Part shown: one piece after another, positions 19,676 through 24,487 of the stretch
Numbering within the stretch: position 1 is the first letter of the stretch
How the letters are laid out: every line of letters starts with the position of its first letter
DNA from: Rubripirellula reticaptiva
Lineage (GTDB): Bacteria; Planctomycetota; Planctomycetia; Pirellulales; Pirellulaceae
Direction: 5' to 3'
Assembly (NCBI RefSeq): GCF_007860175.1
Contig: NZ_SJPX01000003.1
Location: forward strand, 266,552-330,551
Length of the DNA stretch: 64,000 bases
The notes under the pieces: generated by a model
The model's database searches: none
Told to the model about the DNA's origin: nothing
The model's input: only the letters and a program-made list of their open reading frames with translations
Position numbers and translations under genes: made by a program

Positions 19676-20132
19676 ATATTTCGCGTCCTGTTTGTGAGCT
19701 GCGAGTGAGAGCGTGAGGCTGTTTTGTCTGACAGGCCATCCATTGCATTTGCGGTGCCGTATCCCTTCGGCAAATCACAACCGATCAACATAAGCCATTG
19801 CCAGAAAACAACTTAAGCTACACGGGCTGACAAAGATGTCAAAACGCAACGGTGCGTTTTGGCAACACGGTTTCACCTTGCTTGCAGCACTTAAATCTTG
19901 GTATGGAAAGGGCTTGCGTCTGTGGTGGCGGCTGCGAATCAAATGTGGTTCTAAATCAACACCACGTCGCATTCCTTCCACACACTCGTTTTGCCAACTG
20001 GATCGGCCGGGCTTTCCGAGGGGTAACTCGGGGTCCACAGCGACGGTTCGCCTGGTAGATGTGCCGGGCGGAAACAAGATCGAATCGACTTCCGCGATTG
20101 TTCCGGCCGCCGCCCCGGTGGTCAACATTCCA
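19676..20132. other. Intergenic stretch, partly open in the frame of the next gene
   Basis: The plus-strand frame of the downstream exported protein stays open back to 19836, but the encoded residues have no signal peptide or domain and are followed by an internal Met that begins a proper export signal. I treat it as the divergent promoter region of two operons. An overlapping minus-strand frame is judged a shadow. Confidence 0.45.
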
Positions 20133-22928
20133 ATGTCAAAAAGACTTTCAACGAAACGCAAATCGACGTCGGATCTGCCGTCCAGGCAAACCGTGCGTGC
20201 TCGTTCGGATTGGCAGCAACTTGCTTGGACACTCGTTGTCGTTACGACCGTGATTGTTTGCCACTGCGTGGTCGCGCCAGAAGCCCAATCGCAAATCATT
20301 GATTCGCTCGATTCGTATCCGCCGCGCTGGCATCTAGGCCAGTCCGATTGTCAGGCTCGGGTTGTCAAACAGGACCATTTAGTCGACGGAGGAGTCGACG
20401 GCGGTGCCTGTGAATCGATCTCGTTCGTCGCAACCAACGGCAGCGAAGCGATCTTGGTTTACCCAATTGAACCGGTTCGTCCCCTAAATGATCTACTGGT
20501 CCGAGTTTCCGTGATGAGCGCCAAACCAGGCGCAAAGATCGGATTTCGCATTCGCTATCCGTTTTTGCACAATCCGGAAACGGGACGCCCCAAGTCAGTC
20601 ATCATCTACGGCGCCCAGTACACGACGCCAGGCGAGTTCGCGACGATCGGCATTGGCATGATCGAGCGAGAGTTAAAACTAAAAAACATGGCGATGCGAG
20701 GTGAGTACGGCAGCGATGCTGACTTGTCCGATGCCTTCGTCGACGCGGTCGTGATCAACGCCTACGCGGGGCCCGGCACGACGGCCCTGCGAATGGACGA
20801 ATTGCGCGTCGACGGGCTCGTCCCGATGGCCGAAGGCGTCAGCACGGGCAACGCCCGCGACGGCGAGGCCCGCTTGACCGACCGCCAACGATCGGCTCGC
20901 GTTTCCGGTGGCACCAATGATCATCTGGGCGACAGCAATCCTGGCACCTTGATCCGTCGTCCTGCATTTCCGGTCGGAAAAGTCACACGAATCCTTCAGC
21001 ATAACGGCGAACCCCTAGCCTGGGTTCGTTCGCTGGGGTTCGATGCGGTATTGCTGTCGAGTCCGCCCGATGCCAACATTTTGGGCGAGGCCAGCCAGGC
21101 ACGGGTCGCCATCTATGCCCCACCGCCGGCCAGCCCCGATCCTGCGATCGAAGCACTGCTAGATCCGATTTTGGCGTGGTATATCGGAATGGGCGAAGCA
21201 CTTGATAGTCGCCAAGTCGACTCGGCCGCGATGACGTCATCAATGCTGCGCGGCTGGCCATCGCGATGGCAACGACCGATCATCGCAGCACCGTCTGAAG
21301 CTTGGCGTAATTACGCGCCACTGGTCGACGGCATCATTGACGACTTGCCGACACGAGTTCGGGGCATCCGCGGTGGCGAAGAAGTGTCGCAAATGATCCA
21401 GGCTCATCGGCGGATCGGCGACCGAGTCGAAACAGCCGTTGGTATCGCCAGCATGCCGCCCGAGTCGATGGTCCGCCAAGCCGAATCGATCGCCCGCGCG
21501 ATCGGCGCACCGCCGCCCGAGGGATACCGATGGCATTCGATGTGGCTGCAAACGATGCGAGCACTCGAATGCACCCCCAAAGCCATTCTGTATCGATCAA
21601 CACGGCCGCTGTCGTCGGGGGCAGCATTCGACAACAGCCGGGCGATGTCGCTTAGTTACGTCAACCGCATGATTGCAATGATCGCGCCGTGGGTCAGTTC
21701 GGCCACGGCCGCTGCAGCACCACCCGTCGTCGGCGCTCCCTATCGATGCACTCGCTTGGCGACCAACGACACCGACGTTTTGATTTTGACTTCCATTGCG
21801 ACTCGCGGCAGCGAAGTGTTAGCCGGTGATGGCGACACCCTCGAAATCAATCTTACTCCTTCAGACGCGTCGAAGACCGTTTGGCGATTGACGAATTTTT
21901 CCGCCCAACGGATGACCCCCGAAGCAACATCGACGGGATCTCGGTTGCAAATCGTGTCACCGGATGCTGCCGAATTGATCGTCATGAGCACGGATCCAAG
22001 CGTGGGTGCGTTGCTGAGTCAGTCGGCAGCCAAGTTTGCGCGACAGGCCAGTTTGGATCGTTGGCAATTGGCCAGCGAAGCGGTACGAAGGACACGTGAG
22101 AGTTGGAATCGTGCCACCGCCGCTCGCGCGTCGGATCGCCGAGCTCCGTCGAATTTGGTAGACGTTGCCGAACAGACCTTGATGCAATCCGAACCGATGT
22201 ATCGCGCCGGTGACACCGAACAAACGCTAAGAATGGCTCGCCGCGCCGACGCATGGGCGCTGCGCAGCGATTGGCAACTCGCCGAGTCACTGATGCCAGA
22301 TTGGCCCTCGCCAACCAGCAGTCCGCCGATGGACTTTGGTGCGGCAGAAATTCAGACGATCTGGCGCCCACTGATGGACGAAGCCGGCTGGAGCAAGAAC
22401 TTGTTGACCAGCGGTTCGCTGGATGACGAAAATTTGATGGGGCCGGGCCGATGGAGTTTTGGGCAGCGGATGACATCGCAAGCCAACAGTGAAGTGCGTC
22501 ACATCACACGCGGCACGTTTCAAGGCCCGGGGGCGTTGCAAGCACGCGTCTCGCCGATTGGCGACGACATGTTGCCGGGCGGATACGAGGGAACGATCGT
22601 CCAAATTCGCAGCCCCTCAGTCCGCGTTGCCGCGGGAACGGCAATCCGGATCGATGCCGCCGTTCAGACCTTAGGTTTTGGTGGCCCCCACCAAGGTGTC
22701 TTGGTCTACGACTCAATCGGCGGCCAAGAAATGGGCGTGCTGGTTCGCGGTCGTTCGAATTGGACCAACGTTCGGCTGTATCGACAGTCGCTCGAAGCGG
22801 GCGAAGTCAGCGTGATGTTCGAATTGATCGGCGGCGGCGAAGCGACGATCGACGACGTCCGCCTAAGTGTCTGGGAACCGCAATCGATTTTGCCGAAACC
22901 CGTCTTCTATCCGATCGCCGGCCAATAA
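20133..22928 (+). CDS. Large exported protein, planctomycete-type, unknown function
   Basis: From the ATG at 20133 the protein is 931 residues. A signal peptide or anchor (WTLVVVTTVIVCHCVVAPEAQ) ends near residue 50. Then come a beta-rich N-terminal region (about 55-230), a middle region with a possible TIM-barrel-like glycoside-hydrolase look (WVRSLGFDAVLLSSPPDANI; IGMGEA; PESMVRQAESIARAIG), helices at about 620-720, and a C-terminal beta-sandwich (SPSVRVAAGTAIRIDAAVQ) resembling a carbohydrate-binding module. These are impressions from pattern, not matches. An upstream extension to 19836 is in frame but unlikely. A 71-codon gene follows. Confidence 0.7.
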   Translation: MSKRLSTKRKSTSDLPSRQTVRARSDWQQLAWTLVVVTTVIVCHCVVAPEAQSQIIDSLDSYPPRWHLGQSDCQARVVKQDHLVDGGVDGGACESISFVATNGSEAILVYPIEPVRPLNDLLVRVSVMSAKPGAKIGFRIRYPFLHNPETGRPKSVIIYGAQYTTPGEFATIGIGMIERELKLKNMAMRGEYGSDADLSDAFVDAVVINAYAGPGTTALRMDELRVDGLVPMAEGVSTGNARDGEARLTDRQRSARVSGGTNDHLGDSNPGTLIRRPAFPVGKVTRILQHNGEPLAWVRSLGFDAVLLSSPPDANILGEASQARVAIYAPPPASPDPAIEALLDPILAWYIGMGEALDSRQVDSAAMTSSMLRGWPSRWQRPIIAAPSEAWRNYAPLVDGIIDDLPTRVRGIRGGEEVSQMIQAHRRIGDRVETAVGIASMPPESMVRQAESIARAIGAPPPEGYRWHSMWLQTMRALECTPKAILYRSTRPLSSGAAFDNSRAMSLSYVNRMIAMIAPWVSSATAAAAPPVVGAPYRCTRLATNDTDVLILTSIATRGSEVLAGDGDTLEINLTPSDASKTVWRLTNFSAQRMTPEATSTGSRLQIVSPDAAELIVMSTDPSVGALLSQSAAKFARQASLDRWQLASEAVRRTRESWNRATAARASDRRAPSNLVDVAEQTLMQSEPMYRAGDTEQTLRMARRADAWALRSDWQLAESLMPDWPSPTSSPPMDFGAAEIQTIWRPLMDEAGWSKNLLTSGSLDDENLMGPGRWSFGQRMTSQANSEVRHITRGTFQGPGALQARVSPIGDDMLPGGYEGTIVQIRSPSVRVAAGTAIRIDAAVQTLGFGGPHQGVLVYDSIGGQEMGVLVRGRSNWTNVRLYRQSLEAGEVSVMFELIGGGEATIDDVRLSVWEPQSILPKPVFYPIAGQ

Positions 22929-23035: not shown

Positions 23036-23251
23036 GTGCAGCAAGTCAAACTGTTCAAGAGCGTCGATACCGAACTGCCTGAAATGGAACGGCAGATCAA
23101 TCGTTGGATGCGAAAGAGCGGCGCTCGAGTGATCTCGATCTCCGGAAACCTGGCCCCTCAAAGCGGTAGTAGCGGAGGACCGCTGAACTCGTTTTCCGCA
23201 GGCGACGTGCTGATCATTGTTCACTATGAAATCGACGCGCCCACCAGCTAA
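23036..23251 (+). CDS. Small conserved-type protein, 71 residues
   Basis: Starting with GTG at 23036 this encodes a compact 71-residue soluble protein (QQVKLFKSVDTELPEMERQI near the start, INRWMRKSGARVISISGNLA, ending DVLIIVHYEIDAPTS). The alternation of a helix with two or three strands looks like a real small domain. It is embedded at the end of a longer frame that overlaps the previous gene in another phase, so an automatic caller may misplace its start. GGAGAA about ten bases upstream may serve as ribosome binding site. I recall similar short proteins in other planctomycetes but cannot confirm it. Confidence 0.68.
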   Translation: MQQVKLFKSVDTELPEMERQINRWMRKSGARVISISGNLAPQSGSSGGPLNSFSAGDVLIIVHYEIDAPTS

Positions 23252-23332
23252 TCGTTTTTCAGATTTTGCGTGAACCTTCTTGGGGGCTCACGGTCTTACC
23301 ATCATGACGTTTTCAAAATCCTTGGCAAAACC

Positions 23333-23361
23333 TTGAACCAAAGGCGATGTCGATCGATAAT
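23333..23361 (+). promoter_or_regulatory. Sigma-70-type promoter of the small transcript
   Basis: TTGAAC at 23333-23338 and GATAAT at 23356-23361 are separated by exactly 17 bases. This is the best-looking vegetative promoter in the window and points at the structured region downstream, with a start near 23368. Confidence 0.65.
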
Positions 23362-23479
23362 GGAGATGTCGGATCGCGGTGACGCGCCGCGATGGACTTT
23401 TTAGTACGGAAAACGGCCCGCTCTGGTTGGCACCTGGGCCGTCAACCGTCAAACCGATGAAACGAAGGGAGGTGAGCAA

Positions 23480-23521
23480 GTGGATTATTGCTGTACGAGC
23501 CAACGGGGTGATAACCGTTAG
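23480..23521 (+). CDS. Possible 13-residue leader peptide with tandem cysteines
   Basis: GTG at 23480 follows a perfect GGAGGTGA at seven-base spacing and opens a frame encoding MDYCCTSQRGDNR before TAG. Nothing else in the region explains such a strong ribosome binding site. Two adjacent Cys codons and the following alternative hairpins and terminator resemble an amino-acid attenuator; the downstream gene is a sulfur-related reductase. Translation is unproven. Confidence 0.5.
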   Translation: MDYCCTSQRGDNR

Positions 23522-23592
23522 CAGAAGTCGGCGGACCTGTGCTTCGGCATGGTCACCCCACTCGTTCATTCGTAAGATCGAGCGAGAACTGC

Positions 23593-23639
23593 CCCGCTTG
23601 TCGAGATTCACCTTGTGTCTCGGCAGGCGGGATTTTTTT
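23593..23639 (+). terminator. Strong intrinsic terminator
   Basis: A 13-bp stem (CCCGCTTGTCGAG with CTCGGCAGGCGGG, two G-U pairs) closes a 13-base loop and is followed by A and seven T. All thirteen positions pair. It ends the small transcript about 165 bases before msrB. Confidence 0.88.
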
Positions 23640-23803: not shown

Positions 23804-24487
23804 ATGCGAAAGCTTCTCTGTACGGCTGCCGTCATGATTTTACCGGTCCTTGCCTTAGTAGGATTTACTGGGTGCGATCGAACGATGGTTGCCAATGCCG
23901 ACGATGCGCAGTCCAACGACAAGACGCCTGCAACCACGGTGGCCGAACCAGAAAAAGCGTCTGCCCCATCGAAGACTACTCAAACAAAGACGACGAAAGT
24001 GAACAGCAAAGACAAGGTTCCCTTCATGATTGGCGAATACAACCCGCTAAATGAAAAGGAAGCGTACGTGCTGCTTCACAAAGGAACCGAAGCACCTGGC
24101 GATGGCGGTTACACGCTGACCAAGGATGCCGGAATTTACCTTTGCCGGCAATGCAACGCTCGTTTGTATAAAGCAGACGATAAGTTCGTAAGCCACTGCG
24201 GATGGCCCAGTTTCGACGACGAAATTAAAGGCGCCGTGGCTCGCAACATCGACGCCGATGGCCGCAGAGTCGAAATTGTCTGTGCAAATTGCGGCGGCCA
24301 CCTCGGACACGTTTTCGAAGGCGAACGGCTAACCGAAAAGAACACGCGGCACTGTGTCAACTCGATCTCGATGCGTTTTTTCCCCGAAGGCAAAGAATTG
24401 CCGCCGGTCATCAAGCAGGTGGATCCAGCCGAATCGAAGCAGGTTCCCAAGCCCACCGACAAAACGGCGGTCGAAAAAGCCGAATGA
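23804..24487 (+). CDS. msrB: Lipoprotein peptide-methionine (R)-S-oxide reductase
   Basis: MsrB reduces methionine-R-sulfoxide in proteins. The signal sequence ends in a lipobox (LVGFTGC, Cys near residue 25), so the enzyme should be lipid-anchored outside the cytoplasm. A polar linker follows to about residue 70. The zinc site CRQC and CANC is intact and the catalytic Cys184 sits in TRHCVNSISMRF. I see no resolving-Cys motif beyond these, and no MsrA domain. The C-terminus is a Lys/Pro-rich tail. Upstream lies a terminator-bearing transcript; a TACAAT at 23724-23729 could be its own -10 element. pcp follows by 84 bases on the same strand. Confidence 0.92.
   Translation: MRKLLCTAAVMILPVLALVGFTGCDRTMVANADDAQSNDKTPATTVAEPEKASAPSKTTQTKTTKVNSKDKVPFMIGEYNPLNEKEAYVLLHKGTEAPGDGGYTLTKDAGIYLCRQCNARLYKADDKFVSHCGWPSFDDEIKGAVARNIDADGRRVEIVCANCGGHLGHVFEGERLTEKNTRHCVNSISMRFFPEGKELPPVIKQVDPAESKQVPKPTDKTAVEKAE

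Follow-up and report, generated by a model that had tools for sequence, protein, structure and literature searches.

Upstream of msrB in the window, the whole 64,000-nt stretch of Rubripirellula reticaptiva DNA that was analysed, lies a gene for an RNA of ~272 nt that looks free-standing, with start and stop signals of its own. The best explanation is a structural RNA, gated by the ribosome, that acts in trans or senses the state of the ribosome, to which as a whole we assign a probability of about 0.5; its identity is very probable, and its mechanism is tentative, at somewhat less than even odds. In the proposed mechanism a ribosome would load on a strong Shine-Dalgarno sequence (SD) and read a short ORF starting with GTG or TTG, the stop codon of which lies ~10–14 nt behind the first covarying base (the landmark) of a long-range helix (helix ii) built from the ORF's own codons. 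With the stop 10–14 nt past the landmark, a terminating ribosome would have to keep the 5' strand of helix ii unpaired, the basis for this opening being the size of the ribosome footprint. The SD would find an anti-SD-like partner downstream in many members, and ribosome loading and termination would set the fold. The RNA would then act in trans, or sense the ribosome or initiation state, the peptide sequence being secondary. We infer transcription, translation, switching and trans action alike from the sequence.

A wider reading, advanced with more reserve than the mechanism itself, is that of a class-wide RNA that reads out the translation state, in which a non-AUG start behind a strong SD and then termination at a fixed structural position would open the helix made of the ORF's codons and thereby toggle a trans-acting RNA. 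The conserved element might then be the passing and stopping of the ribosome, rather than a peptide, a ligand or a downstream gene. If true, this would add a new mode of ribosome sensing by RNA, present in single copy across much of a class.

Distribution of the RNA in planctomycetes

Homologous DNA was detected by blastn in 12 of the 13 genomes of the genus, its own included (three of the 12 being partial or split), and in none of seven genomes from other families of the order; with another query, blastn gave matches in 105 of 199 genomes of the family. A covariance search across planctomycetes, proposed as a check in the preliminary description, was made with two models. The first (R1), a model of the core built on 55 sequences and used at a cut-off of E 0.01, matched 116 of 296 genomes of the order and 170 of 297 of the class. 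Applied to a phylum sample, it matched 23 of 294 genomes, 20 within the class and three, weaker, outside it, which double as a rough false-positive control. The broader model (R2; 100 sequences, cut-off E 0.001) matched 22 of 294 genomes of the phylum sample, two of them outside the class, one of which (G579) is a match by construction, being in the training set through locus L200.

Each matched genome of the class carries one match, except for a single genome with two (G135). The 127 of 297 class genomes without an R1 match are explained by loss, divergence or gaps, and weigh against the best explanation. Exact-pattern matches (29 named stretches) include Rhodopirellula, Rubripirellula, Stieleria and Roseimaritima; Rubripirellula itself belongs to the Pirellulaceae, Planctomycetia. 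Judged by kinship to the window's genome, families f21, f111–f113 and f115 are of the same class and of another order. The RNA presumably belongs to the class Planctomycetia as such. In one locus (L016, positions 1–800) the element is interrupted by an assembly gap of N, so that the match is broken up and a short stretch is repeated.

Rfam 15 gave no match at gathering cut-offs in the window; the best weak match, Rev44, reached 15.2 bits against the 178 needed. A plasmid or phage origin was also considered, with no match. The titles and abstracts among the matches listed from the open-licence literature do not describe this RNA. To our knowledge, few planctomycete regulatory RNAs have been described, and R1, R2 and the 130 loci collected here are starting material for an Rfam-style family definition.

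Transcription signals and genomic context

All elements described below lie on the plus strand of the window. The sigma-70-type promoter TTGAAC-17-GATAAT is located at 23333..23361 (TTGAAC 23333–23338, GATAAT 23356–23361), and a transcript that starts 7 nt past the -10 hexamer and ends in the T run would cover 23368..23639, ~272 nt. The intrinsic terminator occupies 23593..23639, with the stem at ~23593–23631 and seven T at 23633–23639. A pattern scan over 1.2 kb found two promoter-like sites against 0.5 expected, the other one being on the minus strand, and three terminator-like sites against 1.7 expected, so that by pattern alone the terminator does not go beyond chance. Across the 12 aligned loci of the genus the promoter keeps CTTG in all 12 and ATAAT in 11 (ATACT in one), and 76 of 130 loci reach a promoter score of at least 8 of 12, vs 6.2% of shuffles. 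On the 3' side of the ORF, 123 of 130 loci have a terminator-like hairpin with a T run, whatever the context, and the terminator stem forms in all 10 MFE structures displayed. The ACCTTG loop of the terminator (23610–23615) is identical in the 12 aligned genus loci, is present in part of the family, is lost in distant members, and may pair with another RNA.

Further upstream, at 23272..23295, the alignment revealed by eye the motif GAACC-N16-GTC, which resembles promoter motifs of the ECF sigma type. The form GAAC-N15-18-GTC is present in 16 of 17 same-genus loci tested (L033 left out) vs 2.4% of shuffles, a test made post hoc on a motif first spotted by eye in the alignment. An independent check is provided outside the genus, where 20 of 62 loci from the family carry the motif, as do 14 of 35 from the order's other families and 3 of 15 from f21, against a shuffle background of 2.1–2.6%. 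It may place the RNA under stress control.

The downstream gene of the window (23804–24487) encodes a protein with a SelR domain, MsrB; it is co-directional with the RNA and lies 164 nt past the T run. The N-terminus of this protein resembles a lipoprotein signal (FTGC; by eye). The preliminary description had suggested that Cys supply, or ribosome stalling at tandem Cys codons, gates read-through into msrB, and such a translation-controlled attenuator would account for the terminator, the leader-peptide-like ORF and the co-directional msrB. The homologues are nevertheless not always upstream of msrB: in a tblastn search of flanks of up to 3 kb, msrB follows the element in only four of 130 loci (the window, L009, L010 and L036), seven of the 130 having less than 900 nt of flank. 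The strand of the nearest downstream ORF looks random, minus in 61 and plus in 62 of 123 loci by longest-ORF calling, a count that is wrong for L009, where msrB lies on the plus strand. A cruder count, leaving out ORFs that start less than 150 nt from the stop, gave 67 minus and 54 plus of 121. Tandem Cys is found in 58 of 130 peptides and absent from 72, and the terminator is kept regardless of context. Attenuation of a downstream gene is refuted as the general function, and we hold it to be highly improbable as an explanation of the RNA.

Elsewhere in the genus, 12 loci have a co-directional gene of ~420 codons downstream. On the upstream side, relatives of a 1030-residue ORF (19836–22928) and of a 71-residue ORF (23036–23251) accompany the element in 16 loci each, the window included; neither ORF of the window had a Pfam match. 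Promoter- and terminator-like signals are conserved and the neighbours are not, and the RNA gene appears, on sequence grounds only, to be independent of its neighbours. The other possibility named in the preliminary description, a stand-alone or dual-function RNA, is supported by the promoter and terminator of its own, by compensatory changes in the stems, and by the conserved start, stop and length of the ORF.

Covarying helices and predicted fold

The 275-nt fold has a z-score of -4.24, with none of 200 shuffles as good. Compensatory changes in the stems of homologues, on which the preliminary description had made its case depend, were looked for and found. Among 55 sequences 93.7% of the cells of the core pairs are paired, and 29 double-change cells were counted vs 6.2 after shuffling; among 100 sequences from many families the figures are 98 vs 25, with 13 of 16 pairs changed on both sides, all of these shuffles ignoring relatedness, so that the figures are not to be read as probabilities. 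The 100-sequence alignment, made by fitting to the model, is biased in its favour, and slid controls were 33–65% paired. As to the samples, alignment A3 consists of 55 of 75 loci, near-duplicates and the odd loci L023, L064, L068, L077 and L082 having been left out, which favours high pairing. Alignments A4 and A5 hold 53 and 54 of the 55 loci of A3, a prior covariation scan of these very alignments having guided the choice of the helices counted in them, and A6 holds 100 hand-chosen loci, all of them already model matches.

The first element of the transcript is a 5' hairpin at 23373..23393 with a conserved ACGC near its loop; all seven counted pairs are changed on both sides and 96.6% of the cells are paired (A5). 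It is followed at 23406..23449 by a second stem, ACGG/CCGT, holding a GGCCC/GGGCC stem and a CTGGTTGGCACC-like loop, the loop, by eye, being kept in the genus and part of the family; six of six counted pairs are changed on both sides, with 84.3% and 75.2% of cells paired. Helix ii (23505..23559) joins the ORF codons GGGGTGA (23505–23511) with TCACCCC (23553–23559). It covaries across families, with four of four counted core pairs changed on both sides and 98% of cells paired, and is re-paired in relatives as GGGGTGG/CCACCCC, GGGGAAG/CTTCCCC and GGGGTAG/CTACCCC. Hairpin iii, GACC..UUCG..GGTC (23534..23554), has two bases in common with helix ii; three of three counted pairs are changed on both sides, and 92.7% and 92.6% of cells are paired. 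The terminator stem is changed on both sides in nine of nine counted pairs, and 98.3% paired.

A further hairpin inside the ORF (23502..23519), AACGG at 23502–23506 with CCGTT at 23515–23519, was read by eye. The competition of this hairpin with the GGGG-containing helix, proposed in the preliminary description, stands as far as the overlap and the covariation of helix ii are concerned. The AACGG hairpin itself is less constant: its register moves, by eye, to ACGGG/CCCGT in relatives, and it was left out of the pair counts because no fixed column structure fits.

Covariation is weaker for hairpin v, CTCGTTC/GAGCGAG (23561..23586), with three of five pairs of its CTCG..CGAG form changed on both sides and 74% of cells paired. 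Helix i, formed by the SD with a downstream anti-SD-like GATCACC, has two of five pairs changed on both sides and is 87% paired; in many relatives GATCACC sits within the hairpin v stretch, and the RNA may switch between hairpin v and helix i. In a folding model applied to 53 sequences, a ribosome imposed at the stop raised the mean pairing of the SD to the 3' side from 0.24 to 0.38 and lowered hairpin v from 0.64 to 0.59. The SD is mostly paired already in this model (mean 0.21 unpaired); the computed change is small and the switch is not clearly visible in it. The covarying 5' hairpin, the anti-SD-like element of the relatives and the ECF-like motif upstream are features beyond those of the preliminary description.

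The mini-ORF, its reading frame and rival explanations

The window carries the SD GGAGGTGA at 23468..23475 and, behind it, the 13-codon ORF VDYCCTSQRGDNR at 23480..23521, with a GTG start at 23480 and a TAG stop, both elements read directly. Together with the promoter, the competing pairings, the UUCG hairpin and the terminator, they are found between 23333 and 23639 just where they had been described. Among 130 ORFs the start codon is GTG in 102, TTG in 28 and ATG in none, and the conservation of GTG foreseen in the preliminary description thus holds, with TTG as a variant. The stop codon is TAG in 67, TGA in 36 and TAA in 27; in the aligned stop columns of A3 there are 33 TAG, 11 TAA, 5 TGA, 6 gapped TA- and no TGG. 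ORF length is 11–16 codons, 13 in 101 of 130, though the picking of ORFs preferred lengths near 13 among nearby starts. GGAGG precedes the start by 6 or 7 nt, and the stop is followed after 1 to 12 nt, mostly 5–10, by GGCGGG.

The ORF looks coding. Substitutions among the 71 distinct 13-codon ORFs respect codons, with none of 500 codon-column shuffles reaching the observed score; in a frame shifted by one the score is positive but lower (446 vs 249), and shifted by two it is negative. The flanks vary by single bases and the ORF by whole codons. Two loci deviate: in L023 one nucleotide of the ORF is deleted, and in L077 a core that is conserved in other respects shows several single-base indels, due to sequencing error or decay; in either case the ORF ends within 14 codons.

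The position of the ORF relative to helix ii was compared in 100 loci, the first covarying base of the helix serving as landmark. Of these loci 85 read the base in frame 1, 13 in frame 2 and two (L180 and L186) in frame 0, of which L180 is mis-picked; L186 (frame 0) and L196 (frame 1) are off their groups. In the families printed, the distance from start to landmark is 25, 28, 31 or 34 nt in the frame-1 group (19 in L196) and 20, 23 or 26 nt in the frame-2 group, and that from landmark to stop is 11 or 14 nt and 10 or 13 nt, respectively; one of these four values applies in 98 of the 100 loci. By these spacings, a shift on one side of the landmark that is not a multiple of three is made up for on the other, and the total comes to whole codons. 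The other-frame loci belong to families f8, f111, f112, f115 and f95. With the frame the C-terminal peptide changes, from QRGGxx in frame 1 to NQGRLA, NQRWLL or similar in frame 2, and tandem Cys is found in one of 15 loci outside frame 1. Despite the changed frame the ORF still has its start, stays short and stops next to the helix, which argues for selection on translating or terminating at this place; the conserved thing seems to be translation or termination here, rather than the peptide.

The main rival, which we regard as rather unlikely, is a micropeptide gene: the 13-residue peptide (..CTSQRGGxx) would be the product, and the RNA folds would only control its translation. Besides the codon-respecting substitutions, it can call on Arg kept through CGA, CGG, AGA and AGG and on the motifs QRGG (85 of 130 peptides) and GG (114 of 130), the f21 loci having been filtered for GG: of 16 such loci, in which GG near the end was required, 15 passed and L179 failed despite a visible 13-codon ORF. 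At least one Cys is found in 121 of 130 peptides, and the conservation of Cys codons expected in the preliminary description therefore holds for a single Cys and fails for the tandem. Three f8 loci of the other-frame group also keep GG (CTGGL), and QRGG in 52 of the 85 frame-1 loci makes a role of the peptide possible within that group. The same stretch of RNA is, however, read in another frame in five families, with the peptide altered; residues 2–4 are free to vary; the codon of Ser7 differs in its first base (AGC, TGC, CGC, GGC) while the bases GC stay; and QRGG overlaps helix ii, so that RNA pairing can account for part of its conservation.

A ribosome sponge, a 30S-sequestering RNA in which a strong SD and a weak start would hold the 30S subunit and the ORF would only limit occupancy, is improbable. 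Of 130 loci, 124 have GGAGGTG ahead of the start and 63 have the 11-nt AAAGGAGGTGA, which can pair with 11 nt of the 16S end; the lack of ATG starts points the same way. GGATCACCTCCTTT has three occurrences in the window's own genome, presumably 16S 3' ends. The window, however, has only eight contiguous complementary nucleotides, and a sponge could do without a conserved stop position, a conserved frame or covarying helices. Less probable still is an ordinary trans-acting sRNA with incidental translation; the free-standing promoter and terminator and the loops conserved by eye would suit it, but the start, the frame and the stop are conserved, three stop codons are in use and length changes preserve the frame.

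The proposed ribosome-gated RNA resembles several known systems in part. Like tmRNA (RF00023), it is a structured RNA with a short reading frame; ARAGORN found no tmRNA in the window, and a separate tmRNA over the RF00023 cut-off is present in its own genome (G000:C6). 6S RNA (RF00013) gave no match in the window, and over 20 relatives the model exceeded its cut-off in none and stayed below it in one, which marks it as a weak model for these bacteria. Dual-function sRNAs such as SgrS, RNAIII and SR1 are free-standing and encode a small peptide; their peptides are longer, whereas the planctomycete ORF persists with a peptide that differs from family to family. Amino-acid attenuator leaders of the trp and his type regulate genes in cis through ribosome position.

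The copper uORF CruR, of 145 residues, is reported to work through a RAPP arrest motif and Rho (PMC9426467). Such leaders and CruR share with the planctomycete RNA a regulation that would go through ORF translation and ribosome position; they act in cis, whereas the planctomycete RNA has neither a conserved downstream gene nor a conserved run of a single codon. The Rhodopirellula-1 motif, compared here by its description in a table row, is a planctomycete RNA candidate, with Proteobacteria also listed, that is probably cis-regulatory and has no Rfam number (PMC2864571). The nearest published parallel in the literature covered is yfr6 of cyanobacteria, whose RNA of about 250 nt includes a short ORF (same report). 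For yfr6 and the Downstream-peptide RNAs, of which 634 were found, with ORF products typically of 17 to 100 residues, coding was concluded from synonymous changes and 3-nt indels. As described there, the conserved motif of those RNAs is a 5' UTR, whereas the conserved core of the planctomycete RNA is the SD together with the ORF, in one copy per genome.
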